Shown: piece after piece, positions 1-48,616 of the stretch
Numbering within the stretch: position 1 is the stretch's first letter
Layout: the number at the start of each line of letters is the position of its first letter
DNA from: Allacma fusca
Taxonomy: Eukaryota; Arthropoda; Collembola; Symphypleona; Sminthuridae
Reading direction: 5' to 3'
DNA: 64,000 nt
NCBI GenBank assembly: GCA_947179485.1
Contig: OX359245.1
Span: forward strand, 67,133,067 to 67,197,066
Notes under the pieces: model-generated
Seen by the model: the letters and a program-made list of their open reading frames with translations, nothing else
Told to the model about the DNA's origin: nothing
Database searches by the model: none
Made by a program: the position numbers and the translations under genes

Positions 1-131
1 GTAGTTTGTTAGCCTATCAGAAGAATTATATTTACATAATAGTTTCGTTTGAGCTGTTTATACAATTCATTTTTATACTCCTAAACCTCATATTTATAAT
101 ATTACGGATTGTTTATTATGATGCTACTTAC

Positions 132-13511: not shown

Positions 13512-16500
13512 CTAAATTAATGCAGTCAGGTTGACAATACGGGAGATCTGGTTTTCTGTGACATTGCCCGAATAAGATCGCAAACTACCATTTTCGGACC
13601 GTTGTCGTATCCCGGGTACTTCAGGCTTAATCCTGAATTGCGAGCCGCTTGAATTTTCATTAGCAGGAACTGCAGGAGGTGGCACACCCAAAAGTTCCTG
13701 GACTCCCATCAAAATGCCACTAAAACGACCAAGGTTGATTCCACTGTCAGCAATGTAATTGACGATGGGTCGGGCTAGCGCAAATATAAAATCAAAGTTA
13801 ACATTTGCAGCCGCCAAACCATCCAAGAGAGGCTGGACAACTTGCAAAAGTGAGAATAGATCGATGTTTGAACTCCCGCCAGCGCCAGAACTTCCACCAC
13901 CAGTCAGACCTGACAACAGACCCGAAATCCCTCCACCTGCACCCTGCGTACCATCCAGAAGTCCCCCAAGTAATCCTCCATTCTCACCCCCAAATAGCGC
14001 ACTCAATGTGGTAGGTATTAACTTCAAGAGGGGCTCGATTTCTATAGTAGCTAAAATGCTGAACAATGGCTTAATCAAGTTGTAAGTCATGGCCAAATCC
14101 AACCCTGGCGGGAAGAAGGAACGGAGGACATTATGTACTGTTGGGAATAATTTAATAAACCGGAAGGAATCATTGGGTTCAATTGGGACAAATGTATCGG
14201 ATGGGGTCGCCCAAGTCTCCTTAATTAAATCTGCCGCCTTTTCCCCAATCATGAGGCACGCTGCCTGGGTTCCGGCAACGGGAATCACTGGCATCACCGA
14301 TGCATCGACGACGCGCAGATTTCGAACGCCTATTACTCGAAGCTCGGGATCGACTACAGCGTGACGGTTATCGGATTTCCCCATTGCGGCTGTGCCAACA
14401 AAGTGATGCTGGGAGATTGACATGTGACGAATGTAACACTCCCAGTACTCATCACTTCGAAACAGACGATTCTCACAGCCTGGAAAAGCAGCAGAGGCAA
14501 GCTGAGCACCAACGCTTCGAAATGCTTCAGTTTCTTCTACAAGCCTTAAATTCATGTTGATAGCTGCGGATTCATATTAATAAAATACACTGATATTGAG
14601 CATTTGTGAGACAGGATTGAGTTACAGGAAAAATTTAGTCTTTGAAGGTCTTCTTGGGATCACATATTTTGCTTACCTTCAATTGTCCGATTAATGTCCG
14701 CATAATCTTGGTAATACTGCGGGTCGATCCAACTTTTGTCCAAGGGTTTTGTTGACTTCAAACCAATCCAGCCTTTGGATTTAGGTCTTCCAACACTCAC
14801 TACCACATGGAAGGCATCTTGTCCCCGATGGGCTCCCCAGTATTTCCAGCTCACCTCGGTGTTTATATTCGTGTAATGAGCGACATGGGCGGGGAACCAT
14901 TTGTGTATGCCAAACGTTGTGAGCGCAGAGACTAAATCCGGCCAGTCACCCTCCCCATTCTCCTTCGCATGCTCAGAGGAGGTTATTCCAATAGCTTGAT
15001 GTCCAGTTGTAGTCAAAGGACCTTGCTTGTCCAGAAGGTAACGCAAAAATGCCCTCGGGGTCAGATCTCGATCAACAAGGATGCTCTTCGGCTCAGTCAT
15101 TAAAAATGGTCCTAGCAGAACTGAAACGTGGTCCTGCAGGTTATGACCCACACCCGGCCTATCAGTTTTAACTTTAACCTGATTCAAAACACAAAAACGG
15201 GCAAAAATAATAATAAATCAACTGAGATTGCCAAGATTTTTCAGCAATACAAAAATATTTAAAGTTAATAGCAAATGCCAGAAACATACTCCCATATTCC
15301 AAAGCTTCTCTCCAGGTCCGATACCCGACAGCAAAAGGATCTTCGGTGTCTGGAGCGCACCTGCAGAAAGGATAACCTCTTTGGTTGCAAAAGCGCTGTG
15401 TCGCTCGTTGAAACGGTCGTACTCGACTCCATACACTTCATGATCGTCTCCACGAATGAGCAGCTATATAAAATTAGCATTTTACATTTTTTAAAGATTG
15501 AGTACCTGGAAGTGTGTATGACAGTTGGGAATAATCTGAATTGTGCATCTTCATTCTGAGGCAATCCTTAACCCAGATATTTTTAAAACTTCCAAAAACT
15601 GCTTAAACTACCGACATTGCATGTACTCCAGAGTTATAAATTATTGTTTTATTCCAACCTTTTTACCTTATTAACATGAGCATACTTGTAAATCACCAGG
15701 TTGCGCCGCTTCCTCGAAGATTCAATATAGGATTCAAATACTGCATCCCGCTTCCCCTTTCGTGTTGCCAAATGCCCCACATCGAAGCCTGCAAAACAGT
15801 TTTTGAAAGTTACTGCCAATACAGCAGGAAATATAGACACGTTTTGTTTGGGGAAAATTCACCTTGGGTGTAATATCCGTTAATGTCCGCGTTCTGGTAG
15901 CCAAGTTCGTTGGCCCCCTTTAAATAATTATCCACCAGGGGTCTGTACTGAGCGGGTTCAACGTGAACTGGTCCTCCGACCCCGTGCATGTCGCCTATTA
16001 CCACAAGTATATACACCACTGTTAGGAAATCTTATGTGGATATATTATCTGGAATTATTATTATTCTGATCCGAGAATTATTAATAACCAAGAGTAAAAT
16101 GTCACTACAGGGAAAAGTTGCAACATTACTCTACAATTCATGCAAAATAAGCAATCAGACCCCCCGACGCCGACATCACATGATCACATAATTCACAATA
16201 GACGCTTCCAGCTTAGCTTTTAGATACCCTTGGCAATAAAAATGCTTCATTGGATTTATCAAAAAAAAGGGCGTTACAAACCTTCTTGCCACTCCCCTTC
16301 ATAATCCTCACTCCTAATGAAATACTTCAAAACGTTTGCATAGCTCCAGGAGGGATCGCCAGTTATATTGGCCCAGTTGTCAAAGTCCAGGGAGTTCCCT
16401 CGAGTGTGAAGCATGTAGTTAATGTTCGAGGACCCACCCAAAGATTTCCCTTGTGAAAGCAAGGCCGTCTTTTGATCAACATGAGATATTCAAATTCGTA

Positions 16501-21255: not shown

Positions 21256-23195
21256 ATGCCTTTCAAACTTATTTTCTTGTTCAGCCTTCTCGCAGGTAAA
21301 AAAAACAGTCACTTTAAAATCTAATAAAAAATATGTAAGAACAAAAAATTATTTCATTGAGTATATTCAATAATATCGAAGCACTATATTATGCATATCT
21401 ATCTATCCATGTTTTTTTTCAGTACTAACCAGAGCCATGGTAGATTCAAACAGATTAGACAACCGACTGAGAAGAGACAATTTCCGTGTGAAAGAACCAG
21501 TTCCGAAAGCTCGGGGTCTTTTGAAAAGAGTTAAACGATTCGGGTGTTGGCATAGCTGCTTATCCCATCCGAAGCCTTATGTGAAGCAGAGCTCTTGTGA
21601 GGAAGGAGGTTCTTGCAGATGCTTGCTCGACCTCCTGGGTCATGTACACTTCATGGCTTGCGATATCAAAGGTCGGAGCCCAATTGGCTCTGAGACACCC
21701 AGATCTGTCAATATTGGGTACACTGAGTAAAATTGAGCTCACTTTAATTAAACCATAATTCAAAACTTAAACTTCAAAAACGATTTTTTAAAACAGTGCA
21801 CTCTCTTTTAAAGAACAGAACGGAAGGAAGTCAATTTGACAGTTATAGAGGATATTGTAAAGACACCAAAAATAGTACTGCTATAACACGAATTTCTTCA
21901 AATATTTTTACACTGTTGTAATGCAGAGTACTTGGCTCAAAAATTGTTCAAAAATTGTACAAAAATTGTTCAAAAATTGTTCAAAAATTGTTCAAAAATT
22001 GTTCAAAAATTGTTCAAAAATTGCTCTAAAATTGTTCAAAAATTGTTCAAAAGTTGTTCAAAAATTGTTCAAAAAATTTTCAAAAATTGTTCATGAATTG
22101 TTCATAAATTTCTCAAAAATTTCTCAAAAATTTCTCAAAATGTTAATTTGCTCCATTTATAATATCCTTCTGTTTTTAGGGGCATTCTTGTTGAGAGAGT
22201 CTACTGTATACGTAGATCGTCAAAATTTCACAGAAATATAAATATAGTTCTGAATTTTTTTCAGGAATATAACACTGCTCGAGCGGAAGCTTCAGTGCAA
22301 TTACAAAACCTGCTGGCCCGCTGATGAGGATCCAAACCAGATCGGAAAGAAGCAGCTGGTGGAAAGGATTGCTAACATAGTCAGTGGAATTTATTCAGGA
22401 GGGAAATGTAACTGTGGCCAAGAGAAAATTGTAGGCCCTACAGACGTCCGACCAGCGGCGTTAAATCATGTCCATCAAAGGGAAAACTACAAATTTGCAT
22501 TGAACTACCAGACATTCCCCGATGAGGATGGTCAGTGTGTCTGTCGATTTGGGAAATCCATCGAAGGTGAAGGTCATCACACGGAGGAGGACTACAGTGT
22601 AGAAGCTGAGGGTGTCAGTCATCAGGAGATGAACAATCTCGAAAATGATGAGCTCCGGCATGTCTTCCAGTGCGGGATCCGAGGTTGTCGTCACATCGTC
22701 CGCAAAATCAGGAAGAATGACGATGGCTCCGGCGCTCCTTCCAACTCGACAAGGAAACCCTGGTACATGATGGAGTTGGAGAGGAAGCCAGTGATGCCCG
22801 AACACAAGCATGATACTGCCACTACTGTCATCTGTAATTTGAAGACTTGTTGGAGGATAGATGACCAGGGGGATAAAGTGATCACGAAAGAGGACAGTGC
22901 TAATACTCATGCCTCGGACCCAGCCAGGAATTCCATTCAATTGACGTTGAAGCAGAAGCAGACACTGATGAGACAGCGGGACCAGACTTTAGGATCCAAA
23001 AATCACGGACCCACTGTCCACTGTACTCATGGGGTCTGCTCCTGGATCCGTAAAAGCGGTCAACGGAAACGTAAGAACAAGAAGAAGCCATCCACAAAAA
23101 CTGGGATCTCTGGGGATGATATTGTTCCAGGAAAGGACGGTCTTTGCCCTTGCTATAAAGCTTATGTGACCTATTTTAATTGGAGGCATAAATAG
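21256..23195 (+). CDS. secreted cysteine-repeat protein, family not recognised
   Basis: Three exons (21256-21295, 21423-21717, 22265-23195) give 421 residues. Exon 1 encodes most of a signal peptide (MPFKLIFLFSLLA, cleavage likely near residue 18), so the product should enter the secretory pathway. Dibasic sites occur early (KRVKR at 48-52), suggesting propeptide processing just before the first cysteine. Cysteines follow two recurring motifs: C-x4-C preceded by a hydrophobic residue (123/128, 248/253, 302/307, 365/370; a C-x3-C variant at 55/59), and (G/D)-G-x-C-x-C (78/80, 160/162, 203/205, 406/408). The linkers are charged, rich in Lys, Asp, Glu and His. The exon 2 donor (GG|GTACAC) is weak but is the only join that keeps frame. 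If it is not used, exon 2 ends at a stop at 21730, giving a short six-cysteine peptide. AATAAA lies at about 23231. Function unknown. Confidence 0.7.
21936..22141 (+). repeat. 11-bp tandem repeat in an intron
   Basis: About fifteen to eighteen degenerate copies of TTGTTCAAAAA, drifting to TTTCTCAAAAA at the right end. They lie wholly within intron 2 of the cysteine-repeat gene. Confidence 0.85.
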
Positions 23196-23614: not shown

Positions 23615-25720
23615 TTAACAAGTTTTGACAACGATGTTGAGAGCTACTTTTAAACCTTCGGTCATTGACACCTTGGCACGGATGTTCCTCGTTTGAATAA
23701 CCAAAGGACCATCTTTTGCCTGCACATATATCACCAAGGGAATTAAAAAAAATTAATCATAGTTTTTTTTTTATGAATACTGCTTCCAGTAGAATGTTTT
23801 AAATCTTACCATGCCATATTTTCGATCCGGGCTGGTACTCCACTGATCATCGCTTGTCAAGTAGACCATTAAATTTGCATCGGTTGAAAAATTGGAGGGT
23901 ACGAAGGCCGCTCCGAATTTATTGCCATTGTTGAATATCTGGAATGCAACCACAAGTCGAAGATCAGTCGTTCCGATGCGGAAGGAAACCAATCCTCCTG
24001 CTCCTTTCCCCCTAAAAATAGTTATCAGAGTTAAATTCAGTACAGTTTTCGAAGACTTCAGCAGAAAATTTCGGAACTATATGCAAAATTTTTACGGACG
24101 AATTATTCATTTTGACTATCAGAACTTCCCTACTTCCTCCCGATATCATTTCAGGTCTTGAGAACGGCTGCTGGCCATTTTCCAAATAACTTGCTGGCTC
24201 GTTTAGGGCAACGTGCAAGAGATTTACTGAAATCCGAACAAAAGGTAAAATTTCCCATCGAAACTTGTAAACAAGGACACTTACCGAGCCTCAGGATTTA
24301 TTTGTGGGTCTGTGTTTCAAAATTTGTATTTAACTTACCAATTTCAAAAATGTAGCCGTAAGGTCCTAAAATATATTGAGAAATATCCAGGATTGACTTC
24401 CCCACGATGGATTTGCCATCCACAACCCCCTGCAGTGATTTGGGCTTGTGGAATGGTACAGCGTCTTCAGTTTTAACATTCTCAAACTTGAAGTTACAAA
24501 TGTCAATTTCAAGTAAGGATTTGGGCCCTCCAGTAAATGCAACTTTCGCCAGAATATCTCCATTCCATACCATAGCGGTCACTGGATCTTTGCTCCACTG
24601 TGTCAATTTAAAAAAATACTTTATAATGAAATATGCAGCAAAAGAGAATAGACTGCATCGTGTAGATCGTTTAGACTGATTTACATCGAAATTTAAAACA
24701 ACCGTAGATATATGAACGTACCGTGACCCATCTTCTATCTGCCATGATCTTCCACAAATTAGAAAAATTGGCTGCTCCCTCAAATGCAAAAGAATTATTT
24801 CCAGTTATCAATTTCATTGGTGCCAACGCAACTGCTAAAAGATTGCTGTTCTGCAGGAGCCACACGACCAAGCGAAGATTTGCTTCGACGATGCAGTAAG
24901 AAAATAACCCATTCATCCATTGACTGTTCGCAAAGTAAAAATAGGTTTTCAAACTTAAATGCTCAATTCATTCCTTCAAATTCCAGCAAAACATGTTTCA
25001 AAGAAATTAAATAATATTACGCACCCAGGAGACGAAAACATCAGAGCTTCCACCGTCCCGGATTCAATTACTTGTGGCAAATCGAAACTCCCCGTGGGCA
25101 TGGAATATGAAAGACCTTGAAGATTATGATCCAAGTAGTTTCCTGATTTACAAAATTACAATTATTTGCTTATAGTTTTGCATGAACATCATTTAAATTA
25201 TTACAGTCTATTATAATATTTTTGCGAACTTACCAATTTGAACAACCACGGCAAATTGGTTCGGAATAGATTCCAAGATCGAAGTCGGAGTTTTACCAAT
25301 TGAGGAAGCTCCTTGAGCAATTTCTTCGGACTCTGTAACAGTTGCGTTAAATTGCTCCAACAAATAATTCTGTTCGTCTCCATCAGTCTCGGATCTAATT
25401 TTATCTCCTGTGGATTCGGGCTCTCCAAAATCGATCTTCGGAGCCAAGTCATCCGGAGAAAGAGGAAAGTGTTCGCGAATGGATGCTGGGTCAACTTCAT
25501 TTAAAGGTTTGAGCAATCTCATTTGGTGCAATATTTGCTCTAAGCGTTCTCTCACACTTGTTTCGTGATGCTCGCCATCCACAGATTCTCCAGAAGTCTC
25601 TTCCCCAATATCTTTGGACCCAATTAGCTCCTTATTGATCTTCTCGCATTCGGCCTTGATATCATTGAGAGTTTGTAGATGTTCACTGATCTTCAGGTTC
25701 ATTTGAATTTCTTCGGACAT
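23615..25720 (-). CDS. internally duplicated two-domain protein, tandem paralogue A
   Basis: Seven exons (minus): 25720-25234, 25142-25025, 24923-24722, 24597-24339, 24226-24100, 24011-23810 and 23719-23615. They total 1,500 nt and encode 499 residues starting MSEE. There is no signal peptide. Residues 1-130 are charged and helix-prone. Two repeats of about 195 residues follow. Each starts with a G-K-rich segment leading to a hydrophobic strand ending in IG (QFAVVVQIG; YGYIFEIG), then a Gly/Pro loop, then a strand of the type L(F/V)S(Y/F) plus LRLVV. Introns fall at the same places in both repeats, with the phase series 1-2-0. Paralogue B at 27175-29262 has the same exon plan. The family is not securely identified. 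The order of strands and the final LNIVV strand faintly recall the actinoporin-like (pore-forming) fold, which is only a guess. The product should be cytosolic or released without a signal. Confidence 0.8.
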
Positions 25721-27174
25721 ATTATGAAGAAATGTCTCCAATGATCTGCGGACGTCGCAATATAATCAGTATTGTTCGTCGTTTTAATGACGTGTATAGC
25801 TTCTTTTTGAATTATTCACACGCTTTGCAGTAATTGAAGAAATATTTAATTTTTATGCAGACACTCGGGAATATGGTTCAGGAAGCTTTCAAAATTGCCA
25901 AATAATCTAAATTTCTGGCAGCTAACGATAACACCGAATAGCATTGGACAACCCAGGTTGTTACTTCTTCCAAAATAGGCAATTACATGGGAAACGAAAA
26001 TGTTCCAAAAATTGACAGTTTCTGGAACAGCACCTACAATAATAAGTAGGAAACAATTTAAAAATTGTCTTCTTTCGAAAACTGCTTAGACAACGGAAGG
26101 TTTCGGAAATTAAAAAAAAATTACGGGTCAACTGCTCTGGTAAAGCACAATTTTTTGAATAAGGGATTTTTTGAAATTTTGCAATCGGGCGGAGTTGGGT
26201 AAATATTCCAGCGCCCATGGTTTAACCTGCATCTGACCCGAATTGCTCTTCATGGACATGTAGATAAAGTGTCAGTTTGTTCCTAATTTCCTAAAAATTT
26301 ACTTAAGTTAAATTTTTTTCAATATTCCGGAATGCCTGAATAAGAACATGATATTTCCTATGAGCTTAATTATCCCTTTTAGGAGAACCTTGAACCGATT
26401 TCAGAAATCAGTATAATATTGCAACTTAATGCAAATTGCAACATTAGACTAATTTTTAAAATGTGTGAAAAAATAGCTATTATTTTTCGAATTTGAAGAG
26501 AAGTCTTCCCCGAAGAAAAATAACTATGAAAGATAAAAAAAATAAATGCCTACTCTTTTTTATGCTCTATACTTTTACTACAGTTGTCTGTTAGCAGTGA
26601 TCATAAAATTGTACGTGTACCATAATTATGTAACCTATCATTTCCTTACAAGGTCAAAAGTTGACAGTTTGACACATACGAGTCACAATGCAGATTGTAC
26701 AATCTAAATTGGGGCATCACCTTATCGTTTTGAAGGCAAGATAACTTAGTGGTAATTATCTTTTCTATTGTAAACTGTAGTGCTGTAATAATTACATATA
26801 GGAAGTTATATTGACTGGTTCTCTGTTATGTTGAAATATTGTCAAGTATTTGCATACAGCAGTATAACAAAGTAACCTTCTGCTGAATTTGCATACTTGT
26901 ATGAAATCATGTGGAAAATTTTTACATGAGCCAAAACTCAGCAAGAAAATCAAAACAAAGTGCTGACTGACTGTTGGAATTATTTTCACGAAAAATAATA
27001 GATTTTAAAACAAGGTAAATTTTTTCCCCTTAAAAATTCTACAATCGTGTGGCATACGAGAGTGCGAGCTGACCAAAAATTAAATGTTCTCAATATGTAG
27101 TTGATTTTATTAGCGATAATTATTATCACTTGCAATTTGAGGAAGACCCTGGGAACGCTTAAAAATATATTCGA
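25721..27174. other. interval between the two tandem paralogues
   Basis: AT-rich with no recognised gene. A splice acceptor-like CCGCAG lies just upstream of the paralogue A start, so a 5' UTR exon may lie here. Confidence 0.4.
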
Positions 27175-29262
27175 TCAGTACGTTTTCAGAACGATTTTCA
27201 GAACTGCCTTTAAATCTTCGGTCATTTCCACCCTGACACAGATGTTTCTCGCCAGAATCACCAATGGACCGTGTTTGGCCTTCAAATCATAATAAATAGA
27301 AATAAAATGATTGCAATTATCATAATTTTGTGCATATAAATAATTAAAATGGCCCCCAATTAAACCCCGATTTACTACAGATTTTTAATTACCATGGCAA
27401 ATTTTCGATCCGGACTGGTACTCCACTGATCATCGCTTGTCAAGTAGACCATTAAATTCCCATCTGTTGGAACATTGGAGGGTACGAAGGCCGTTGCGAA
27501 TTTATTCCCGTTGTTGAATAGCTGGAACGCAACAGCGATGCGAAGATCCGTGTTTCCGATGCGAAAGGAAACTATTCCTCCTTTACCCTTCCCTCTGCAA
27601 TTAATTATTACAAGTTCTTTCTGTCCACAGAAATTTTTAAAAAGTTTGACGATCAACTATTATTTTGTACTAACGAATTGTCCATTTTAACGACGAGTAC
27701 TTCTCGGCTTCCTAAAGACACTACATTGGGTTTTGTAAAGGGTTGTTGACCATTTTCCAAGTAACAGGCTGGTTCACTCAGTGACACGCCCAGGAAGTTA
27801 ACTGGTAACGAAGCAAAGCATTAGTGAGCTTGAGATTGTTTCTTTGAATTGTGCGATACAGATTTCGAAATTCTACAATAATTGAAACTTGCCAAATTCC
27901 AAAATGTAACCATAGTCTTCCAAAAAATATTCAGAGATGACATCGATAGATTTCCCAGCAATAGTCTTCCCATCCATAATTGCTGAAAGACTTGTTTTGT
28001 AGAGTGGAAACGCGTCCTCATTTTTAATATTTTTAACCTTGCAGCTACCGGCTTGAATTATTATGACTGATTTTGGGCCACAGGTGAAATTAATCCGTAT
28101 CACAATGTCTCTATTAGACAAAATCAAGTTGCTGTTTCCCTGCATGGAAATTACTCATATTAAACTCCTCATCGGTGTACCCACTCTTTGCTCTAGTAAA
28201 TTTTGACATCGATACTCGCATCGGAATGCCTTAGTTCGAACTAACCGTAACCCATCTCCTGTCTGCCGATGTTTTCCACATGTTGGAATTCTGTCCTGAT
28301 CCCTCAAACACGAACGGATTATTTCCGAATTGTAAGCTCATCGGAGCCAAAGCAGCTGCCAGGTAATTGGTGTTTTGCTGAAGCCATATTACTAAGCGAA
28401 GGTTCGCTTTAACGATGCAGTACGATAGCAACCCCGTCATCCATTGGCTGTACGAGATGTAATTACACTCATTTAATACACTTGCCAAGATTATGCTTAA
28501 TATTTATCCCTTTTCTTGCCTTTTATGTCCTCGAAGTGTACAGGAAATAAAATTACCTCTGAGATGAAAATACCAGAGCGTCTGACATCCCCGATTCAAT
28601 GATTTCTGGCAAATCCAAAATACTTCCAGCAGGAATATTATGCTCAAGATTTTGAAAATTAACATCCATATGGTTTTCTGTATTAGAAACAATAATTTAT
28701 TCGTAGAAATATTTTAGAATTTTTTGATTCTCATATGATAATTACTTAATTTTAATACGTTGACATATTTAATCTCACCAATGAGTACAACCAGTGCATA
28801 CTGGTTGGAAATATTTTTCATAATCAATTCAGTACTTCTTCCAACTATAGCAGCTCCTTCTTTAAGACTTGCGGATCCTTTGACTACTGTTTTAATTTCT
28901 TCGAGTAAGTGCGCCTGCTCAGCCTCATCGTTCTCAGACCTGATTTTATCCCATGATGGCGCTGCATCACCGAGGCCTTTTCGTGGATAGGGTTCTATCT
29001 TCGCAGGACAGTATTTGTAAAGACCTCCCAAGTCCACGCCCTTAAATTCCATTTGAAGCTTTCGCACTTGCGCTGTAATTCCCCCCAGAAGTTCTTTAAT
29101 CGTAAGTTTCCCCGCATGACCACTGGATTCAGCTCCAGTGTCTTCCTCATTATTCTTTAGACCAAATAAATCTTTATTAATTTTTTCACACGTGGATTTT
29201 ATATCCGTGAGGATTTGTAGATCTTCAGTTCCCTCCTGGCTCGTAATCTCTTCCTCCGACAT
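27175..29262 (-). CDS. internally duplicated two-domain protein, tandem paralogue B
   Basis: Seven exons (minus): 29262-28779, 28677-28557, 28447-28246, 28139-27893, 27801-27675, 27594-27393 and 27279-27175. They total 1,488 nt and encode 495 residues starting MSEEE. Exons 3, 5, 6 and 7 have exactly the lengths of their counterparts in paralogue A (202, 127, 202 and 105 nt), and all six intron phases agree (1,2,0,1,2,0). Conserved blocks include QWM(N/T)GL(F/L)SYCIV, ADRRWVTV and TSDDQWSTSPDRK. The fourth intron appears to use a GC donor (TTTG|GCAAGT) where A has GT. There is no signal peptide. Divergence from A is substantial in the N-terminal 130 residues but low in the last repeat. Function unknown; the same weak actinoporin-fold resemblance applies. 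Confidence 0.8.
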
Positions 29263-34919: not shown

Positions 34920-35090
34920 CTTTTGTGAATAAAATAGATACTCATGTACGGATAGAGGTTTTGAGTAAAATATGGTTACGGGAAAATTGTTGGTACCGGT
35001 ACTTCGTTTGGATTTCAAATACATGAACGGGTACTGAAAAAAAATTCTCTGTGCTCGGTTACGGGTACACGCTTTATGAACCCCGTATTG
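34920..35090. repeat. decayed GGGTAC-motif element in FAR pseudogene intron 1
   Basis: Degenerate GGTACGGG motifs lie here, with CTGTGCTCGG near the right side resembling the CAGTGCTCGG terminus. The same insertion lies at the matching place in intron 1 of the intact FAR (46560-46700), together with shared flanking sequence. Confidence 0.6.
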
Positions 35091-35383
35091 TAAAGACGAA
35101 CAATGTACATAATTATTCTAACAGGGGCTTTGGGGAAAATGATAGTTTTAATTTGTTTTGTTCTTACCATGGTTCTTACTATAGAATTTACCATATCTGA
35201 ATACCTAAACAGGATGTCATTGTGTGAATCTGACCTCGGTCGGACCAAAATATAAATTTTCCCAATATTGGGACAAGACTGAAGAAGTTTAGCCACCAGA
35301 CACTTTCCTACAAAACCTTGTTGCTCTGTGATGAAAACTGATTTGTTGTTGTAGAATTGACAAATGCCCGTATTGTTAGATAT

Positions 35384-36534
35384 TGTAAGTAAATTGGTAA
35401 AAGAAAATATACTCAAATTCGCCAAATTTAGAGAATATACCAGGAAAATGAATTCCGAGACTTTGTCTTGAATTCCTGTCTGGGCTTTTCTATAAATCCA
35501 TTCTGTGGTGGTAATAAATTATCCGTTCCACGGAAAGTATATACTTAAACAGTGAGTCTACTTTTGATTTCATTTAATCAAAGGTTTCTGATTTAACTTA
35601 TGAATTTATGAATCGTCGCCGTAATTAAATTTTATATTTCTTATTTATGAATCGTTGAAATAAAAATTCAGCTGAATTTACAAGTAATAATATCATTCAA
35701 ATATATGTAAATATGCATTACGTATGAGGTTAGTCGGTTGAAATAAGATGGTGATATATATGTACGTCAAAGCACACTTCTGCTAAATTGATTTCTCATT
35801 TATGACCCTGGGCGATAACTAGTTTTGAATTACTCGGTCCGGGAACGTGGAAAAAATCGTCATGGTCACAGTGAGTGGTACTAATTCTTGAAAATATTTC
35901 ATTCCCGAAAAAACTGCTTGTTTCCCTGGGGTATTTTAAATAAAGAAATGTTGATGTGACTCATTAGAATACGGAAAAACACACAAAGGATGTGTGATAC
36001 GGCTTAGTTGCTACCAGGCCAATTGTCGTAGGAAGAAAAAAAAATTTAGCACACATAAAACTCAAGATTAAACTCCCACACGTTTAGCCCATCAAGCCGG
36101 GAATAATAATTACATTAATTGATAGCAAGGAATCATGCTGTGGGATAACAAAAGTACGACGGACTTATGTCACACAAACTCTTTACGTAATTGCGCAAAA
36201 AAATAATACACTACAAAGAAGTCTGGTAGAAAAGTTCGGTGAATTCTTTTCTTCACTTATATTTTGTTATATCATAATTCCTCATCTGTGTGTATTATTT
36301 GATACATCGTAACATGTGTTTCCCTAGAAGCATACATTTTAGATACACAGCCTTACATACACGTACTGTATGTAGTGAGGGTAAAAGGGTATTCAAAATA
36401 AGCTATCTGTATATACAGAAACAATAAAATAACCGACAGAACTTTCCAATGCCCGGGTATAATGGCATAAAATTCATTCAAATGTCTCAATTCTCAACGC
36501 ATCTAAATACTCGGTAAAATGGTCACGTGTGCGA
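35384..36534. other. upstream region of the FAR pseudogene
   Basis: Collinear with about 47000-48330 upstream of the intact FAR. No gene seen. Confidence 0.4.
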
Positions 36535-36725
36535 GTAGTAAATCACCAAGTTGTACCCGTACCGTATTTTCAAGTCCTTGCACCCGAACCCATAACCTGT
36601 ATCCGTACCCGAAATTTTCAACCAACCAAATTATACCCCGGGTGGTACTCGAAATTGTTCGGGTACACTAAGTCGGTACCGGGGTAGTACTCATACCCGT
36701 AACGATTAACCCAAGTATTACCCAT
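36535..36725. repeat. GGGTAC-motif element fragment
   Basis: TACCCGTACC/GGGTAC motifs lie in both orientations, with no termini or target duplication found. Confidence 0.5.
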
Positions 36726-36871
36726 CCTCTTTGCCAAGAACTGTATCAGTATGAGGGATTATATTAGGTATAGAGCACCACACAACCACTTGAGTCCATT
36801 CGTGTTGAGTATTCAAGCAAGCAAGAAAACTGACGTCTGTAGATTGGAATGGCTATGCGGAAATTTGTTTG

Positions 36872-37140
36872 TTACAATGTCACACATCTCCAGGCAGCGG
36901 CCAAAATTGTATTAATGGTATTGATGATTATTAAAAAAATATATTACAAACGTTTTTAATGTAACAAATTTCATGGGAGTTCTAATTATGACACTCAATT
37001 TTAAAACCACGCATTTTATTATTTTCAGAGAGCTAACTTGTAGCCGGGCGAACAATATAAACTGGCGATTGGTCTTTGAATGATTCCACCAGATTTTCCG
37101 CCTTACGCCTTGAATAGGCATAAGAGTTGGGATCATACTT
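36872..37140 (-). pseudogene. fatty acyl-CoA reductase exon fragment
   Basis: A single FAR exon corresponding to exon 4 of the intact gene lies at about 37140-37038, ending at a preserved donor (ACAA|GTTAGC). The last about 17 codons of exon 5 follow at about 36920-36872. The start of exon 5 and all other exons are missing. The short-chain-dehydrogenase Tyr-x3-Lys motif is changed: DPNSYAYSRRKAE replaces [13 protein letters not shown], so the lysine is arginine. The fragment lies upstream of exon 1 of the pseudogene at 32253-35383. It is therefore either a third FAR copy or the missing block of that copy displaced by rearrangement. Confidence 0.75.
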
Positions 37141-37310
37141 GCAGTTTTGATCCAAAGATTCAGTTCGACTCACACCCGAAAATTTTTCGGAATTTAAATT
37201 TTTCTTCCTGTCCGCCAACACGATTTTATGAACGAGTAGGTAGATAGTATGAGTACGAGTGGTCGTAATGGTAAGAAACGAATATTCACGCGCTCTAGAT
37301 GCATTCTTAC

Positions 37311-37805
37311 TAGTGTTTCTGAACGGTACCAAAACATGGACTCGTCCCGACTCGTTTTCCCGAACCGAAAAAAATCCCAATTCTGTTCCCAAAACCGGAA
37401 CCGGTATTTTCGAGTCCGGGACATTTTTGGTTTCCCGGAACCGATCCGGTAAATAAAAGCGGTTCCCAAACCGGTTCCGGTTCCTTTCCGAACAGTCAGA
37501 AAATGTATATGATTCATTTTTATGGAAGCCAAAATTGTATTGCCTTTTCAAATGATAGTTGACAAATGCTGGCCAAATGCAAGTTTCGCGTTTTCATACA
37601 AAACGGCAGCTTTAACAAACCATTCCCGAAAACTTTCGGTTTTGATTTTTGTACCCGAAACCGGACCGAAATTTGACGGTTCATAAACCGATGACCCGAA
37701 ACCGGACCGAAACGTAACGGTTCTTTAAAACGTTGACCCGAAACCGTACCGGAACCGAAACCGAACCGGAACCTCGGGAATTCCCGATACCGAACAGAAA
37801 CACTA
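37311..37805. mobile_element. hAT-like non-autonomous element (CCGGAACC-rich)
   Basis: Inverted termini TAGTGTTTCTGAACGGTACC / TAGTGTTTCTGTTCGGTATC. A perfect 8-bp duplication ATTCTTAC flanks it (37303-37310, 37806-37813). It is 495 bp and almost entirely made of GGTTCCGG/CCGGAACC-type motifs. No transposase. Confidence 0.88.
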
Positions 37806-38644
37806 ATTCTTACAGTCACAGCTGAAAATTGCCTACATTGCCTGCATAAGTTGTTGTCCACACTAATCTACAAATAGCCTCGAGATAACAGACTTTATCT
37901 CCATTATCTGCAAGTTCCGTAAGTACGATTGATAATGATTCATTGAAAGTTCAGGTTATTAGATACATATTGCAAGAAATATATATAATTTACATTTTCA
38001 TTTTTTACAAGGAAGGAAGACGAATGCTGGAAAACCCTGACACCTACAGGCTCAAACCACTTCGTCTCAATTCTCCCTGTGTGGGTGGGTACTGTTGAAA
38101 GCTAATTTAAGATAGTTATGGGGTCGGCATCCTCATCATTGACCATTTTATAAGTGACAACATTTAACGCATTTTGTGATTCAGTCACCTTGAATTATTC
38201 TTCCAGTACTGGTTGTTAGTGAGAACGAGCCCCTCAAGTTTAATTCTTGACAAAGCTTAAATTATTCTTATATTTGATGTTCACGTGGTATTGGGGACCC
38301 AAATTTGAAAATGAGTAGTCGTTATATCCTTTTTGAATCATGAAATTAGGAGAAACCTCCCATAATAATGGCCTTAAACTTCACAATACTACAACGCTCA
38401 ATTCAGTGTTACAGATACAACACTGTAAACAGCACTTTAAAACTGCATGATTTTAGAATAATTTATAGAATTAGTGTATTTATTATCGGATTTAAATCTA
38501 CAGTTTTCTCCCAAACACTGCCATTTACTAACTTTGGTCTCAGGCGGATTTACAGTAAAGCAGGTTTAAGGTTAAAATCGGAAAAAATATTTACGCAATT
38601 AGTCACAAATTTTTTATAGTTTAGAACAAGAAAAACATCGAATA

Positions 38645-39157
38645 TTACATGGAGTAAATATCCAGATCAATGAGGCCCATTCCATCATTGGGTGTGCCGA
38701 AGAGGTCACCGCCCTGTTTTTTAAAAGGAGTTCCAGGAAGGTCTACATTCGCCCCAGGCTGTTGTTGAAAATACTGAAGCCGTTGTCTTGAGGAATTCCG
38801 TTTTTTCACAAAGTGAAAGCAACAATAACGGAAAAGACGTGTTCCACATTGTGTCCGACATTGAGCTCCGCATTTATCGCAACCAATTGCATCCCCCCCA
38901 CCCTCCTCAACCTCAGCCAGTTCTTCTCCACTAACGTGTGGAACCACAACCAGATATAACAAAACTGAGCCTGAAATTTAAAAAAATCCAATTTACACCT
39001 GCATTAGAAAAATGACTAAATCAAAATATTAGTCGGAATTATTATGATTTTCAACGTTCTTAGTAATTATATATGTAATATTGCTATATAATAAGTATGA
39101 GAAAAAATTTAAACGTAACAAACCGACAAGAGCCCCGGTGAATAAGCGAAAATGCAT
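38645..39157 (-). CDS. Trissin: trissin-type neuropeptide precursor 2
   Basis: Two exons (39157-39124, 38970-38645) encode 119 residues, with the same layout as copy 1: signal peptide, six-cysteine peptide with C-x2-C-x3-C-x3-C-x7-C-C, a KKR site and an acidic/Gly tail. The mature peptide differs from copy 1 at two sites (RTQCG for RTKCG, FRYCC for FRPCC), and the precursor differs at a few more (HVSG for QVNG, LDIYSM for PDIYSM). The splice donor GTTTGT and acceptor CAG are conserved. About 1.2 kb of upstream DNA is also duplicated, so regulation may be shared. No disabling change was seen. Confidence 0.9.
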
Positions 39158-40658
39158 TTTGATATCCTCCAAACGGAGATGATACTGGGCAAGAAAAAAT
39201 AAATGCTGTCGATAATGTAACTGCTGATTGTGAGCTATGGTTTCTGAATGCCTGAAATTTGGACTCTGGCGTTTCTTTTATACTCCTCTGCATGTGTTCA
39301 TTTTTAGACAAACCATTTCCAAAAATATAATATTCAAATGCTGATGGACTTGGTGAGGATTTCCCCTTTGGAACCCATATTAGGATTATGCCGTATTTGC
39401 TTTTCTGCCATCGTTAATAATTTAGTTCACTGGAAAAATAGCTACTTATTCCAAATCTATACTGCGAAGTTCAAAGTACTATAAGATTTGAACAAATTGA
39501 CTGCAAACTTTTTCTCTGGGTACTTTATGGACAAGCGAATTTAACATAGGGCTAATAACAAGGAAGATAAAGTTTGAAACGCATTTTCCAATATGAACAA
39601 ATCTGGGAAGCAAGTTAGAAATTCCCATTCAATTGGGTCAAGAAAAATTTAGTACGGAAATTAAAGTATAAAAAAATTTAAAGGTAATCTCACTATATGT
39701 GAAACTCTTTGTAAGTGGATATTCTCCTAAGGGGTAAAAAAATTTGGAAATTGGGATTTATTAATGCTACGTTATTTCTTCTTGTCAGAGCATCTCAACA
39801 TACATTTTCCCTATTTATTTTGTATGGCTTGTCTTGTCCATAGGGGAAACTCTTACTGACCTTAAAATCTTTTTCAAGTAAATGTTTAATGTGAAAATTG
39901 TTTTGAATCTTGTCCTTACAATATTTACGGTAAACTTCGCTTTTGATCATTGATTCTCAGATGCCTTAGCGTATGTATGCAGAATCGGAGGGAATTGTGT
40001 GCATTAAAATCCAAATACCAAGTAATCTTTCTTGGATGCTGGGCTTTCTATCAATCCCATTCCACTGTGCACACCAAACTTTATAATGGGTTGGAAAATT
40101 GATTCCCTCGATCATCCAAGTATATATTCTTTCCTGTATTCTGGTGTAATGGTCAATATTTCCTACACATGACAGTCCAGGAATCTCTGAATTGATCAGT
40201 TCGAAAGTCGTCCATACAAATGTTATGTAAGAGTTGTTCCATCACATGTAAACGTTAATATTAAAATTAGGAGCAGCAGACAAGTCAAGATTAAATTCAA
40301 ATAAAATCTGTGGATTCAGAATTGAAATCCACCCCAATATATCCTCGAGTTTAACCGATAAATAATCCTAGGGAGTGGTTATTCAACTTCAAACTCATAT
40401 TCAAATTTTTAAACCCCTCAATTAACAAGCTTCAATACACAAATGATTCAGTTGTTAAAACTGTATATTTTTACTTTGTATGTCTTCATATCACTATACT
40501 GTCTGCTACCTTCAATGTTAATACGTCATGTGTGTATAACAGTATCTTATTCGTGTTAGTGTTGTATATGCGTCAAAGACAATACCCCAATAAAACCAAG
40601 TACAGCTTAAAAATTGAGTCATAAGAGCATTATTGATCCTTTAGGGAAAACAGTATCG

Positions 40659-42181
40659 TTAACCTTACAAGCAAAGTCTTCCGATGTAAACTCCAGAACT
40701 GAATGAAAATTGGTGGAATTGTAGGCACTGCTAATAGTGTTCTCACAAGCCACAAACTTTGTGCCATCTCCTCTGGGTTCGGGCAGTAGGACATTTGAAA
40801 GTTTGATTTTTTTTGAAAGTTTGACAGGGGGGACCCTTCCTAGCTCGAATTTTTGCATGTTAAATCCATAAGCGAAATCCATTTTCGCAACTCGAACAAA
40901 ATCCAAACCAATGTTCAGACATGTTCAGACATAAAAATACGCTAGTCTTGTCTTCAAGGGTACACAATTTGAGCAGAAATCAGCCAAATCTCAACATTAT
41001 AGGAATTATTTTGTTCGATTCGTCTGTAATTTGTTTCGTATAAATATTACTGTTTTCACAGTCACAACGGAAAAAATTCGAATCTTGTAACCGCGGGGTT
41101 GTTACATGTAGAGAAAAGCGAGTATGAAAAAGTTACACATGTATGATTCCGCAGTGTCACAAATGCAACAAACCTGTTCTTACACATTGTTATACTTTGG
41201 ACAGGATTATCGATTTTAACATGAGGTACTGTGTCATTATCCGAGCCAGAGTAGAATTAAAATATTCGAAGTTTTTGCAAAATGTGATGAAATATCGAGA
41301 CGGGGAAGGTATTTTTTACGGCCTTAGTGATCAACGAGTATGTTCCTGTAGTTAAACCAGGTTTTTACGTCAATTTAAAGTTTACCGAGATTTCACGATT
41401 TTTTTCGAAATTTCATGATTTTTTTTCGAAATTTCATGATTTATTTTCGGAATTTCATGATTTATTTTCGAAATTTTATGATTTATTTTCGAAATTTCAT
41501 GATTTATTTTCGAAATTTCATGATTTATTTTCGAAATTTCATGATTTATTTTCGAAATTTCATGATTTTTGATTTCGAAATTTCATGAAATTTCAAATTT
41601 TGTGGCGGGGAAAGTATTTTTTAAGATTTTAGTGATCAAGGAATTCGTTTGTGCGGTTAAATGTGATTCTACGTGAATTTGGGGAATTTTTGAAATTTCA
41701 TGAAATTTCATCAAATTCGAAAATTATAATCGCTAAGGCGATGTTGTTTGGCGCTGGTCCAGTCGTTGTAACTCGTTCCGTGCTGGAGCTTTTCGTGGGA
41801 CAAAATCAAAAACGAGCACTTTTACAAAAGCGCTTCGCTTTAATAATATAAAAATATTAACACGTACTTAGCCGCTAAAGCACGTGCAGCGCTGATTGTA
41901 CATATACTTATGTATAGTGACATGTCTGAACATTGGTTTGGATTTGGTTCGAGTTGCGAAAATGGATTTCGCTTATGGGATTTAACATGCAAAAATTCGA
42001 GCTAGGAAGGGTCCCCCCTGTCAAACTTTCAAAAAAAATCAAACTTTCAAATGTCCTACTGCTCGAATCCAGAGGAGATGGCACAAAGTTTGTGGCTTGT
42101 GAGAACACTATTAGCAGTGCCTACAATTCCACCAATTTTCATTCAGTTCTGGAGTTTACATCGGAAAACTTTGCTTGTTAG
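40659..42181. mobile_element. foldback (large inverted-repeat) element
   Basis: Arms of about 265 bp (40659-40931 and 41921-42181) are inverted copies with few differences. They enclose about 990 bp. Each arm contains GACAGGGGGGACCC (either strand) and the phrase GGATTTAACATG. The arms share these, in the same order, with the foldback at 52294-55690, so the two are related families. The centre contains a tandem TTTTCGAAATTTCATGATTTA array. Each arm reads as the same 80-codon open frame from outer to inner side, with no recognised homology. Confidence 0.7.
41385..41600 (+). repeat. 21-bp tandem repeat
   Basis: About nine to ten copies of TTTTCGAAATTTCATGATTTA lie within the spacer of the 40659-42181 foldback. 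Confidence 0.85.
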
Positions 42182-42564
42182 AATAACCGTTTTTTTAGCT
42201 TAAAAATCATTGTTTATCTATTCACTGTTACAAACCTCGTCTCTCCACTCAATTTTCTTCTGCAGTTATTTGGGTTTAATTACGGAGCGAGCTTTGAATA
42301 ACAGTTACACCCAATGTGTTTCGTATCTGTTAGTGTGCGAGATTATATTAAGAGTAGCGCTTTAAATAAACGGAGAGATAGTGCTCGTTAGTAATAAGGA
42401 GTGCTTGGCATGCTACCTTTTGGGCATTGTGTGAGGCCATTGAACTATTAACACGCGGAACTTTAAATAAACGGACAGAAAGTACCATTTAATAATAAAG
42501 ATTGCAATAATTTTGCTACTGCTATATGTTTTAATGCTTTTTGGGCATCAGATTATCTTCGTGC

Positions 42565-42870
42565 TAATGACATGCATTTTGATATCTTTCAAACGGAGAT
42601 GAGACTGGGGCCAGACACTGAGATAAAGAAAACAATACCGATGATAATGCAATTGCTGATTGTGCTCCATGGTTTCTAATTACCTGAAATGTTGACTCTG
42701 GCCTTCAGATTACTCTTTTCTACTTGCTCATTGTCACGGAAAGGCAAAATATTCTGGAAAATAAAATACTCAAATGCTAATGGAATTGGCGGGGATTTCA
42801 CCATTGAAACCTACATTAGGGTTTGCTCTGCTGGTTTTTCTGCTATCGTTAAAAATTTAGCGGAAGACTA
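42565..42870 (-). pseudogene. relic of a third trissin gene (exon 1 and upstream region)
   Basis: The sequence from 42571 (GCATTTTGATATCTTTCAAACGG) matches the start codon and upstream region of both trissin genes (30832-30960, 39155-39260), including TTGCTGATTGTG and ATGGTTTCT. The ATG-CAT start is present, but the following codons diverge at once and exon 2 is absent. It is therefore a relic. Confidence 0.7.
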
Positions 42871-42908
42871 AAAACACTAAGACTTTGGGAAAAATTGACC
42901 CGCAAAAC

Positions 42909-43594
42909 CAGACATGTCCAGCCTTCGAAGGCTAGCCTTCAATGAAGGCTTCATTGAAGGCGGAATATCAATTTTCCAAAGAGTTGAGTAGGGCAGGCGG
43001 GAAGGCTGAATTAATTTGGGAAGGCTGAAGAAAGCCTTCCTAATATTAACAGAAAACGGAAGGCGAAGGAAGGAAGTATGTATGTAAATAAACCCTCTGC
43101 TATACTTAGAAGGCTTCGCGCATGCAATGAGCTACAATAGATAGTTGTAAATACAACAATGAGAGTGTACTAAAACACTACAAATATGCACAAACGTACA
43201 GTTATATAGTGCGCCCACTGTTTCAGTTCGTTTCAAAAAATTCGTTTCGTTTCAGTTTGGACGCTGAAATGAACCGAATTTATTGTTTCTTTTCAGTTCA
43301 CAAAAAAGTGTTCCAGTTCGTTTCAGTTTGCTCGGTGAACTGAAACGAAACGCAAAACGATCGTTTCAGGCACGAAAATTTAAAATGCTTGACATTAAAT
43401 ACTTTATGACCCGGTATTCCCTGCCTAGGTTTATTACGACGTCAGGCATACTTCTAAATGCAAATCTATAACCTTCGGTAGCTCAAAATTGCGGAAGACA
43501 AAATATTTTGAAGGCTGAAGGATGAAGGAATGCGTTTTTTCAAAAAATTGCCTTCGAAGGCTTGAAGGAAGGCAATTTCATTTGGACACCCCTG
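42909..43594. mobile_element. hAT-like element (GAAGGC-rich) with a TTTCAGTTCG block inside
   Basis: The left end is CAGACATGTCCAGCC and the right end is the inverse of CAGGGGTGTCCAAATG. Flanks are near-matching: CGCAAAAC (42901-42908) and CGGCAAAAC (43595-43603). Subterminal GCCTTC/GAAGGC motifs occur on both sides. A separate block of GTTTCAGTTCG/CGAACTGAAAC motifs at 43212-43375 may be a nested element; no target duplication was found for it. Confidence 0.6.
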
Positions 43595-43917
43595 CGGCAA
43601 AACTATGTGTGGTCTTTTTTATGAACAGTTTAACTGACCTTATACTAGTAATACTAACGCAGGATATGAGTAAGAATTAATCAGGTAAATGAAAATTATG
43701 CAAAGAAAATATGCAATTTTACACGTGGATTTAATCCAATATGATTCCCAGTATATTTCAAAAGTACACTATCCAACACGTGAACAATTATAAGCTGAGT
43801 GACACTACATGGGTTGGTCTAATTTAGCCTTCTGATTATTCGAAAATCTTTACAAAGTCCGGTCTGAATTTATAAATATTCCATTAGTAATTAACAGGAG
43901 CATTTCATGGAGTTATT

Positions 43918-46900
43918 TTAAAAACGGCCGAGTCCTTCCGCGAAGTCCTTGGTAAAACATTCCCAGTTTATTTGGGCAAAGTCAGTGTAAAATATTTGGC
44001 GGTCATGCGGACTCATCATCTGACATAGCTTCTGCATGTTTGATCCCAGGAACTCCCAATCGTTTAAAGTAAACATCTTGAAAACATGGGCGAGAATAAA
44101 GGCTTTCATTTGATGTTTGGCCAAACTATAATGTATCAAAATTAACGACAGATTAAACATCTCTGAAGTCGACAAATGAACTCTGATCTCAGAAATTACA
44201 TATCGTACTTTTATCACAATTTATAGAGCAAACTCATTGGTTCCAAATTATTTACCTCGCTTTCCTTCTCTCGCTTCTACAAGCGTTCAGTGGAAATGAC
44301 CTCAGCATAAAAAAAATCTTGGTTTTCAACTGAAAAATGATCTCACTGGTGGAAAAGGCTGGGTATTTCATGTAACGCATAACTGAGTTAGATTTTTTCT
44401 GAGTAGCTTCAAACCCCCATTTTACAATTTTCTCATTCAACACGGTGTTGTCTCCTTTCGGTACACAGTTATAGACGACAAATCCACTGTCGGAACTGGC
44501 GAACAAATAAAAATACTAGTATTAAAACCAGCAAGAAGACTGATATCTATAGATTGGAAATTGGTGTGTTACAATGTCCCACGTCTCCAGGCCGCCGCCA
44601 AAATTGTATTAACGGCATAATCCACTGGTGTGATGGGAGCCCTTGTTTTGGGGTTTATTAGAATAGTTTGATAAGCTCCAGTAAATATCAGGTGATAGAA
44701 TTGACTGATACTGGCACTGGTGTCATTCCATCCTGGAAACGGTCCCTTACATGCAGCTAGAACTAGAGTTGCAAATTACAAAATTATAATAAAACACGTA
44801 GAACAAATGTTTTTCAAGGCAACAAATTTGAGTTGTAATTATGACGCCCTATTTTAAAACAATGTATTTTATTATTTTAAGAGAGCTAACTTGCAGCTGG
44901 TCGAACAATACAAACTGGGAGTTGGTCTTTGAATGATTCCACCAGATTTTCTGCCATACGCTTGGAAAACGAATAAGTGTTGGGATGCTGTTCTAAAATT
45001 CTAAATTAAAAAATAGAACACGTTTTAACGTCTCAACTAGGTTCAATATGGTCCGAGAAATTTGAATAACTATTTATGGGAAACCACCCGTACTTTTCAT
45101 TCACAGAACTGAGCCACTCCGGCGGCATCTTTTGAAACGTTTCCAACGCTTCCAACGGTTCAATTTTAGTTTTGTAGACCTTTTCTTCCACTGGAGTTTT
45201 CGAGTGCATTAAAAATGCCGTTGAAACATATACAAATGCCTGTATGATAGACACGATCACTTTAATACATACTACATACACTTCCGTTCACATTGAGATA
45301 TCTTCATTAACATTTGTACTAACTTTTAGATTAGTCATTCGTTCTGCGAGGCTAAGGACGTTGTAAGTTCCGCCGACGTTCAGTTTCAGGATTTTTGACA
45401 CAGCCATGTTGAACCTAATGGCAGCTGCGCAGTGAATAACTACCTCAACATTCCTGATTAGTTCCAGTGTCGTTTTGTCTAATCCGCAGTATGGAAGGGA
45501 CATCTCACCTTCGAGACAGCAAACTTTCTCAAGCAAGGAAGGACTGTTTTTCATGATATTTTCAAAAACCTGAAAGAAAAAAAAAATACAAAGCTCAAAA
45601 AATAATATAAACACGATACCCTGAACAGCACAATTGCAATCTGGATTGATTCAGCAGAAAATATGTATGACGATAGGATCAAATTTTTATTTTAAAAAAT
45701 GCTTAAAAATATTAATACAGTATCTTTAGGGAAGTATATGGTCGGGTATGGGTACCCACTTCGAGGGAATAACAAGTAGTACCCAACATAAACGAATAAT
45801 TATATCAATCGATGGTCACAACAATTTATATTACGGTATGATATTATCCTAAGAACAGCGACATCTTACGATATGCCTAACTCTTATGTGGGAAAATATT
45901 AAATTTGCTGTTAATGTGGATTCATTCCGCAACCCCTTAATCACATTAGAATTGAATTTTGTTACAAACTTTCGTCATGTTTTCAAATTATGGGAAAATG
46001 CTTGTGAAGTAGTAGAAATAAGTTAGTAAGCTGTTATCAAATTTTAAACTACTATCGAAATATGTCTCTTGTTCAAAAAAAAAATTGAAGGAGCATGAAA
46101 GCTGCAGGAAAGTTTAGAATTCATTTAAAATGCCCAGTAAAACCTGACGGAAGTTTACTGGGACTAAATCTGATTTGCTTTTATAATTCCGAATTTTTAC
46201 AGTACCCTCTGTAAAATCTTCGAACTATCTCCGAAGTTCAAACAAAGACGAGAAGAGTGATGAGTGAATGAGTGAAGAGTCTATGAGTTCATGGACACTC
46301 ATTCATACACACATTTCATATGATCTGGGAAGTAACCACTTTTGAGTTGTAAATTTTAAATAAAATTATTTGAACTAAATTAATAATTATTCGTAAATTG
46401 ACCCACAACTGGTAAATATTGTTTTAAATCCCAATATTTACTTGTAATTTCAAATGTTTTGGAAACTCGTTTTATCGTTCATCCATATATCCGTATGGGT
46501 TTCTTAGAAGGGAAGTACAGATATGTCAAAAATTTCCAAAATGATCATTGTTTAGTGCAAACATAATAGATACTCGGGTACGGGTACAGATTTTAGATGA
46601 AATATGGGTACAGGTACTTCGTTTAAATTTGAAGTAAATGAGCGGGTACTAAAATAATTTACCCCGGTACTCGAGCAAGGGTCAAGGGTTTCTGTACCAA
46701 GTATTGTTCAGAAGAGCGCTGTACGTATTCTAAATGAGGCTTTGGTGGAAATTATAGTTGTAATTTGTTTGATCTTACCGTAGAATTTACCATGTCTGAA
46801 TACTTAGACAGGATGCCAGCCTGTGAATCTGGTAACGGACGGACCAAAATATAAATTTTCCCAATATTGGGGCAAGACTGAAGAAGTTTAGCCACCAGAC

Positions 46901-46982
46901 ACTTCCCTACAAAACCTGTTGCCCCTGTGATAAAAACTGATTTGTTGTTGTAGAATTGACAAATGCCCGTATCTTTAGACAT
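43918..46982 (-). CDS. fatty acyl-CoA reductase (alcohol-forming)
   Basis: Seven exons (minus): 46982-46779, 45569-45324, 45239-45071, 44992-44891, 44762-44573, 44495-44256 and 44125-43918. They total 1,359 nt and encode 452 residues. FARs reduce acyl-CoA to fatty alcohol with NADPH, for wax, cuticular lipid or pheromone synthesis, usually at ER or peroxisome membranes. The Rossmann motif is TGATGFVG (G20, G23, G26) after SVFI. CIVRPAA and GPFPGWND are typical NAD_binding_4 marks. [13 protein letters not shown] and VYVSTAF are the central sheet motifs. The catalytic pair is Y213/K217 in NTYSFSK. Residues 310-452 form the FAR_C (sterile) domain. The exon 3 donor (GTTATT) is weak but is the join that keeps frame. 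Length is a little below the usual about 500 residues; no C-terminal anchor is obvious. Confidence 0.88.
46560..46700. repeat. decayed GGGTAC-motif element in FAR intron 1
   Basis: GGGTACGGGTAC motifs lie at the same intron position as the block at 34920-35090 in the pseudogene. Confidence 0.6.
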
Positions 46983-48616
46983 TGTAAGAAAATTGGTAAA
47001 AGAAAATAGTCTCAAATTCGCCAAATTTAGAGAATATACCAGGAAAGTGAATTCTAAGACTCTGTCTTGAATTCCTGTCAGGGCTTTCTTATAAAGCCAT
47101 TCTGTGACGTAAAAAACGACCGTTCCACGGAATTTGCTTATCTTGAGGCTTAATATCCTGTAAACCCGGATTTCTATTCTTTGAGTTATTTGCACAAATT
47201 TGAATGTACAGTGTGCCCAGAAACCATTGCGCATGTAGTTTTTCCAAGATTCTATGAAATTACAATTTTTTAAGTTATATTTCTGAACAGAATTTCAAAT
47301 AGACTGAATGCATTTCAAGTTACTCAAACATTTTATAGAATTGATTTTTGAATTTTGTTTGTTTCCTCGCTATACCTTTTCTAATTGCTGATGAATGTAT
47401 TTGAAATGCGTTATTTCTTAACCAGAATAAAATTCTGTACAAGAAATATCCTTCAACAATAAATGTGTAACGTCATTAGATATGGGAGAACCTTTAAAAC
47501 AAATGTTATTCAACACCATGGACTTTTGGGCTTAAAGTAATTTATCTTGTATTTAAGTTTATTTCGAACGTGGAAAGTATTAACACTTGCAGCACAAGCT
47601 CACTGATCCATAAAAATCCGTTTTAATTTATTTAATCAATCTGATTTAAAATATGAACTTGTGAATCGTCAACATAATAATTATATTTTGTTTTTCTTAT
47701 TTATGAATTGTTCAAGTAAAAACTTAAAATTCAGATGAATTATCAAACAATAAATAATATCATTTATGTATACGCATGCATTATGTATTACTCGGTTGAA
47801 ATAAGATAGTGACAAGTACGTCCAACTAGAGACTGTTCTGCTAAATTTGTTCCTCATTTATGATTTTGAATGATAACCGGTATTGTTGTACTCGGTTTCG
47901 AAACTCGAAATAGATCGCCATGGTCACAGAAGAAATTATTACTCAATTATATGTAGATATTATACGAATGAATTATTATTACTATTATAAACAGACCAAC
48001 TTGAATAGCTAAATCCTGATTTATTGGGATTGGTACTTATTCTTGAAAATATTCCATTCCCAGGAAATTGCTAGTATACCAGTGGTAATTTACATAAATC
48101 TTAGATTTGGATGCTAATCATTAGCACACTGAAAACCACACGAAGGACTTGTGCTACGGATTAGTTGCTATCAGGACAATTGTTGTAGGAATAAACAAAA
48201 TCTTAAAAATGCAGCACGCGTAAAGCTTAAAAGATTAAACTAACTAATGCAGCAAGCCGGGATTATTATTTTTACTATTTGATAGCAAGGAATCATGCTG
48301 TGGGTGTGGGATAAGAGAAAGAGAGAGAGACACGTACTCATGTTTTCCGTCCACAAGGAATAGGAACATCTAAAAGAAAGAGATCTACTACACTGAAATA
48401 TTCACGTGTATAGGAACGTGTTTTACGACAAAAATAGATAAATAAAATAATTTCATACTCTCACTCTCTCTCTCTGGTTGTTTCTCTTGTCAAAACTAGA
48501 AATGACAAGTGAAGGTGGATTGAATCACCCGGTTGTTTACAATCATTTACTCGGATTCTGCAGATGATCTGGGATACAATCATGCTTGTTGAAAATACCA
48601 AGAATGTCTGCTTATA
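46983..48616. other. upstream region of the intact FAR
   Basis: No gene is recognised; collinear with 35384-36200 in the first duplication copy. A short GAGAGA run lies at about 48315-48330. Confidence 0.4.

Follow-up and report, generated by a model that had tools for sequence, protein, structure and literature searches.

Two adjacent genes of the springtail Allacma fusca raise the question of how a protein built from two like halves came to be interrupted by introns at matching places in each half, and what such a protein might do. The genes, A (23615..25720) and B (27175..29262), lie on the minus strand of the window, the stretch of 64,000 nucleotides of contig OX359245.1 (positions 67,133,067 to 67,197,066) that was analysed as a whole. 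The favoured reading, with a probability of roughly 0.6, is that each gene codes for a probably cytosolic protein of about 55 kDa, in which an acidic and probably helical extension precedes two fused actinoporin-fold (AF) domains, that this protein would serve as a membrane- or glycan-binding defence protein, and that it arose by duplication of a domain followed by duplication of the whole gene. The gene structure, the homology of the repeats, the shared intron sites and the purifying selection can be read from the sequence itself.

Gene structure and the supporting protein records

Both genes consist of seven exons whose spliced frames are open with no internal stop, coding for 499 residues in A and 495 in B. 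The layout in A comprises an N-terminal extension (about residues 1-120), repeat 1 (about 121-305) and repeat 2 (306-499), the border at 305/306 being the analysts' own cut, and B is laid out likewise. In A, exon 1 (25234..25720, 487 nt) carries the N-terminal extension and the start of repeat 1 and ends in phase 1, exon 2 (25025..25142, 118 nt) and exon 3 (24722..24923, 202 nt) lie within repeat 1 and end in phases 2 and 0, exon 4 (24339..24597, 259 nt) is a fusion exon holding the end of repeat 1 and the start of repeat 2 and ends in phase 1, exon 5 (24100..24226, 127 nt) and exon 6 (23810..24011, 202 nt) belong to repeat 2 and end in phases 2 and 0, and exon 7 (23615..23719, 105 nt including the stop codon) completes repeat 2. 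The counterparts in B are exon 1 (28779..29262, 484 nt, with the N-terminal extension and the start of repeat 1), exon 2 (28557..28677, 121 nt), exon 3 (28246..28447, 202 nt), the fusion exon 4 (27893..28139, 247 nt), exon 5 (27675..27801, 127 nt), exon 6 (27393..27594, 202 nt) and exon 7 (27175..27279, 105 nt including the stop codon). The intron phases after exons 1-6 are 1, 2, 0, 1, 2, 0 in both genes, with the introns of A cutting codons 163, 202, 269/270, 356, 398 and 465/466. Splicing confirmed the first-pass annotation in its exon number, protein lengths, phases, cut residues and the 202-nt length of exons 3 and 6. Introns are GT-AG in 11 of 12 cases, the exception being intron 4 of B (27892-27802), next to the fusion exon, which is GC-AG. 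The exon 5 donor was placed in both genes so that the reading frame is kept; in A this donor is weak (GTCCGT) and the same junction occurs in the protein record P0002. A stop-to-stop open reading frame of 313 residues (22254-23195, plus strand), which contains several cysteines and matches no Pfam family, is convergent with A, and its end lies some 420 bp away from the stop codon of that gene.

A homology search with the alignment of all four repeats returned only four records at E <= 10 (4 of 4212 candidates), all from Allacma fusca; each is annotated as an 'unnamed protein product', comes from a contig 744-972 bp long and has no stated RNA basis. Identity to B is 98.9% over 187 residues for P0001, 98.1% over 156 for P0003 and 93.1% over 159 for P0004, and P0002 is 98.3% identical to A over 173 residues. 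Junctions 4-5, 5-6 and 6-7 match the model both in P0002 and in the B-like P0003, in which the GC-AG intron 4 is spliced. In P0001 junctions 2-3 and 3-4 match the model, with the GC-AG intron left unspliced and read through past exon 4, giving agreement in eight of the nine junction cases and disagreement in one; the junctions covered are 2-3 to 6-7 of B and 4-5 to 6-7 of A. P0004 covers residues 1-159 of B and shares the start methionine; it stops close to where exon 1 ends, and its last two residues are different.

The internal repeat and the order of duplications

Alignment of repeat 1 with repeat 2, the check suggested by the first-pass annotation, revealed homology in all four comparisons, with local scores of 126, 116, 129 and 124 against shuffled controls with means of 29.5-30.1 (standard deviation 4.6-5.1, maximum 63), none of the 1000 shuffles reaching the observed score in any comparison. 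With BLASTP, three of the four comparisons gave E values of 2e-11 to 4e-13, and repeat 1 of A matched repeat 2 of A at E 3.0 only. Introns 1 and 3 occupy identical columns of the repeat alignment (53 and 165/166) in both repeats, and intron 2 falls in column 96 in repeat 1 and column 95 in repeat 2, one codon off beside a gap. That one-codon difference would suit repeats that were duplicated intronless and came to share their intron phases by chance or by parallel gain at preferred sites, yet such an origin is highly improbable, with introns 1 and 3 agreeing in column and phase and intron 2 in phase to within one codon, a coincidence expected for three random sites among 555 with a chance of about 4e-8, or about 1e-5 if 3 nt either way is allowed.

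A and B are 54% identical over their whole length and all six intron positions are common to them. Because they share the fusion, the six introns and this full-length identity, both repeats would predate the split between A and B, and an order in which internal duplication came first and tandem gene duplication second, the two-step history proposed at first pass, appears well supported by the sequences. The accompanying proposal of a three-exon block duplication needs correcting in view of exon 4, which carries parts of both repeats: the last approximately 35 residues of repeat 1, whose counterpart is exon 7 (34 codons and the stop), and then roughly 50 residues that open repeat 2 and correspond to the domain part of exon 1. 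As exon 4 spans both repeats, the duplicated unit was the whole domain, joined within coding sequence, and not three complete exons. The ancestor would have been a single-AF-domain gene in which the introns at phases 1, 2 and 0 were already present. It would have duplicated head to tail, with the last exon of one copy running on into the first coding exon of its neighbour and so generating exon 4. The two-domain gene would then have duplicated in tandem, with both copies staying under purifying selection and exon 6 possibly being converted between them.

Between A and B the nonsynonymous (dN) and synonymous (dS) divergence was 0.32 and 1.34 by NG86 and 0.33 and 1.58 by YN00, with 152, 122 and 233 differences at the first, second and third codon positions of 493 codons; judged by their codons, A and B are old duplicates, both kept under purifying selection. 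Exon 6 of B is unusually close to that of A, with a dS of 0.40 and 18 of 24 fourfold sites identical, compared with dS values of 1.83, 2.17 and 2.10 in exons 1, 3 and 4 (identical fourfold sites 8/21, 8/18 and 3/13). Exons 2 and 7 are intermediate (dS 0.75 and 0.69; 6/10 and 4/9), and in exon 5, for which dS was not computable, two of 13 fourfold sites are identical. From these small site numbers, the low divergence of exon 6 is likely the result of gene conversion.

Fold, family and relatives

For repeat 2 the predicted structure is the actinoporin fold, a beta-sandwich with flanking helices, which would place it in the AF-domain superfamily (AF domains being defined in PMC1559445), and by homology repeat 1 would have the same fold. 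The folds closest to repeat 2 in a structure search are those of pore formers; the 15 best structural alignments to actinoporins of sea anemones and corals show 11-15% identity. Fold similarity to repeat 2 is weaker for the aegerolysins, which have been reported from some insects (PMC9505663), and for fungal fruit-body lectins, Nakanori and TDH it is lower than for actinoporins of crystal or cryo-electron microscopy structure. A structure model of the full-length protein was discarded at a predicted local distance difference test (pLDDT) score of 30.

No Pfam family, PF06369 included, was matched at E <= 10 by any of the proteins (4/4 proteins, 6/6 rows) in a search whose HMMER filters discard the majority of matches beyond an E value of about 0.1. 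A single NCBIfam match (E 0.094, in one of two members) was taken as chance, as were sequence matches of the profiles in the Protein Data Bank (PDB) to titin (six) and NucS (one) at E 0.027 or worse over short stretches, to a ribosome-inactivating protein (E 0.0016, two weak short pieces) and to an aldolase-like chain (E 0.14, a short stretch). A viral structure library gave 316 matches at E <= 10 and none at E <= 0.001. The suggestion at first pass of an undescribed protein family holds for the sequence, with no Pfam and no credible NCBIfam or PDB sequence match, but not for the fold, given the actinoporin fold predicted for repeat 2.

Actinoporins are proteins of approximately 20 kDa (PMC9526159) for which the motifs P-[WYF]-D and RGD have been described (PMC8526580, PMC8778704), and both motifs are absent from A and B. 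Since the defining features, namely a PF06369 match, P-[WYF]-D and a single domain of approximately 20 kDa, are lacking, A and B are not classed as actinoporins; RGD is a weak criterion because the Hydra actinoporin-like toxins (HALTs) and the sponge protein Hi2 are also without it. In the absence of a Pfam match and both motifs, and in their mass, A and B differ from the sea anemone and coral actinoporins FraC, equinatoxin II, sticholysin II and Fav (PF06369). Bryoporin, a moss actinoporin (7pud), has one domain only; its sequence is highly similar to those of anemone actinoporins, and its membrane-binding residues are conserved (PMC9526159). A and B, by contrast, consist of two fused domains behind an N-terminal extension and lack any sequence match. 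Actinoporin-like proteins are known chiefly from chordates, cnidarians, molluscs, mosses and ferns, with sponges added (PMC8778704). No arthropod member was found in the literature by titles and the beginnings of abstracts, and in term searches the word 'arthropod' was absent from the main text of three actinoporin papers, PMC8778704 and PMC9526159 among them, and introns were unmentioned in a paper on anemone actinoporin evolution (PMC5198562). A and B are described here as a variant within the actinoporin fold.

A search with A and B at full length gave no homologue at E <= 1 among the 7998 scored candidates sharing most words, and a 320-residue query containing repeat 2 of B gave none at E <= 10 among 173 candidates, these searches and that with the repeat alignment requiring shared exact words such that distant relatives in other springtails could escape. 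A pattern was matched by 53 stretches in contigs of prokaryotes and 41 in those of viruses, none of which was confirmed, and within the 64-kb window no further copy was detected at E < 1 outside A and B.

Elsewhere in the window there is a GMC oxidoreductase (13512-15217, minus strand), with a PF05199 match in 13512-14576 and an adjoining open reading frame, 14660-15217, without a match. Three open reading frames with fatty acyl-CoA reductase-type (NAD_binding_4) matches in 35015-47294 (minus strand) form a possible tandem cluster, and a C2H2 zinc finger is present in a 330-residue open reading frame at 58688-59680 (minus strand). A weak transposase match, DDE_Tnp_1_7 (E 0.0005, under the curated cut-off), lies at 102-548 (minus strand), and a 15-bp unit is repeated 28.7 times with 97% matches at 53676-54105, where several frames are open on both strands.

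Possible roles of the fused domains

The predicted mass of the proteins, two repeats and the extension together, is 54.5-55.0 kDa. The extension of approximately 115 residues is acidic (pI 4.6-4.7) and in A the residues L15, L18, I21, C25, I28 and L32 have a heptad-like spacing when read by eye. Among the first 60 residues no 15-residue stretch of A or B reaches a mean hydropathy of zero, and therefore no signal peptide is evident, as judged from hydropathy alone. As a measure of an amphipathic helix, the moment is 0.47-0.48 before strand 1 of repeat 1 and 0.37-0.39 in repeat 2, neither segment being at the protein N-terminus.

The role is inferred. The AF domains would bind lipid or glycan, either on a target cell or on a membrane of the animal itself, and the fused pair may be one half of an assembly, joined in advance. 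The protein would serve defence either by release on wounding or ingestion or by acting within the cell. Pore formation by A and B is possible but less certain, because they lack the known motifs for lipid binding and oligomerisation and their helix 1 does not sit at a free N-terminus. A somewhat unlikely alternative is an intracellular lectin-like or protein-recognition protein of AF fold that makes no pore, comparable to the fungal fruit-body lectins and to the lectin-fold domain of HET-B, a protein of fungi. Also unlikely is a classical actinoporin-like toxin, secreted or stored, that binds sphingolipid, oligomerises and inserts helix 1. In keeping with such a toxin, the nearest folds are pore formers and HALTs lyse cells even though HALTs and Hi2 are without RGD and some aromatics (PMC8526580, PMC8778704). 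However, P-[WYF]-D is absent from A and B, although it is retained in Hi2 and, together with some of the aromatic cluster, in HALTs (HALT-1, 7ekz). A and B are also without a hydrophobic N-terminal segment, carry the long extension before the first domain and have the second helix 1 inside the chain.

A bolder reading, slightly less likely than not, is that springtails have their own arthropod branch of the actinoporin fold, with a pair of AF domains fused in one cytosolic chain that bears a coiled-coil-like extension. Such a protein would either act in defence, its pre-joined subunits assembling from half as many chains as usual, or have turned from pore formation to intracellular recognition. 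The covalently fused pair would offer a natural test of the number of domains per pore and of the need for each to insert its helix. The gene pair also documents clearly how a domain was duplicated without loss of its introns before the whole gene was duplicated and, possibly, partly converted.
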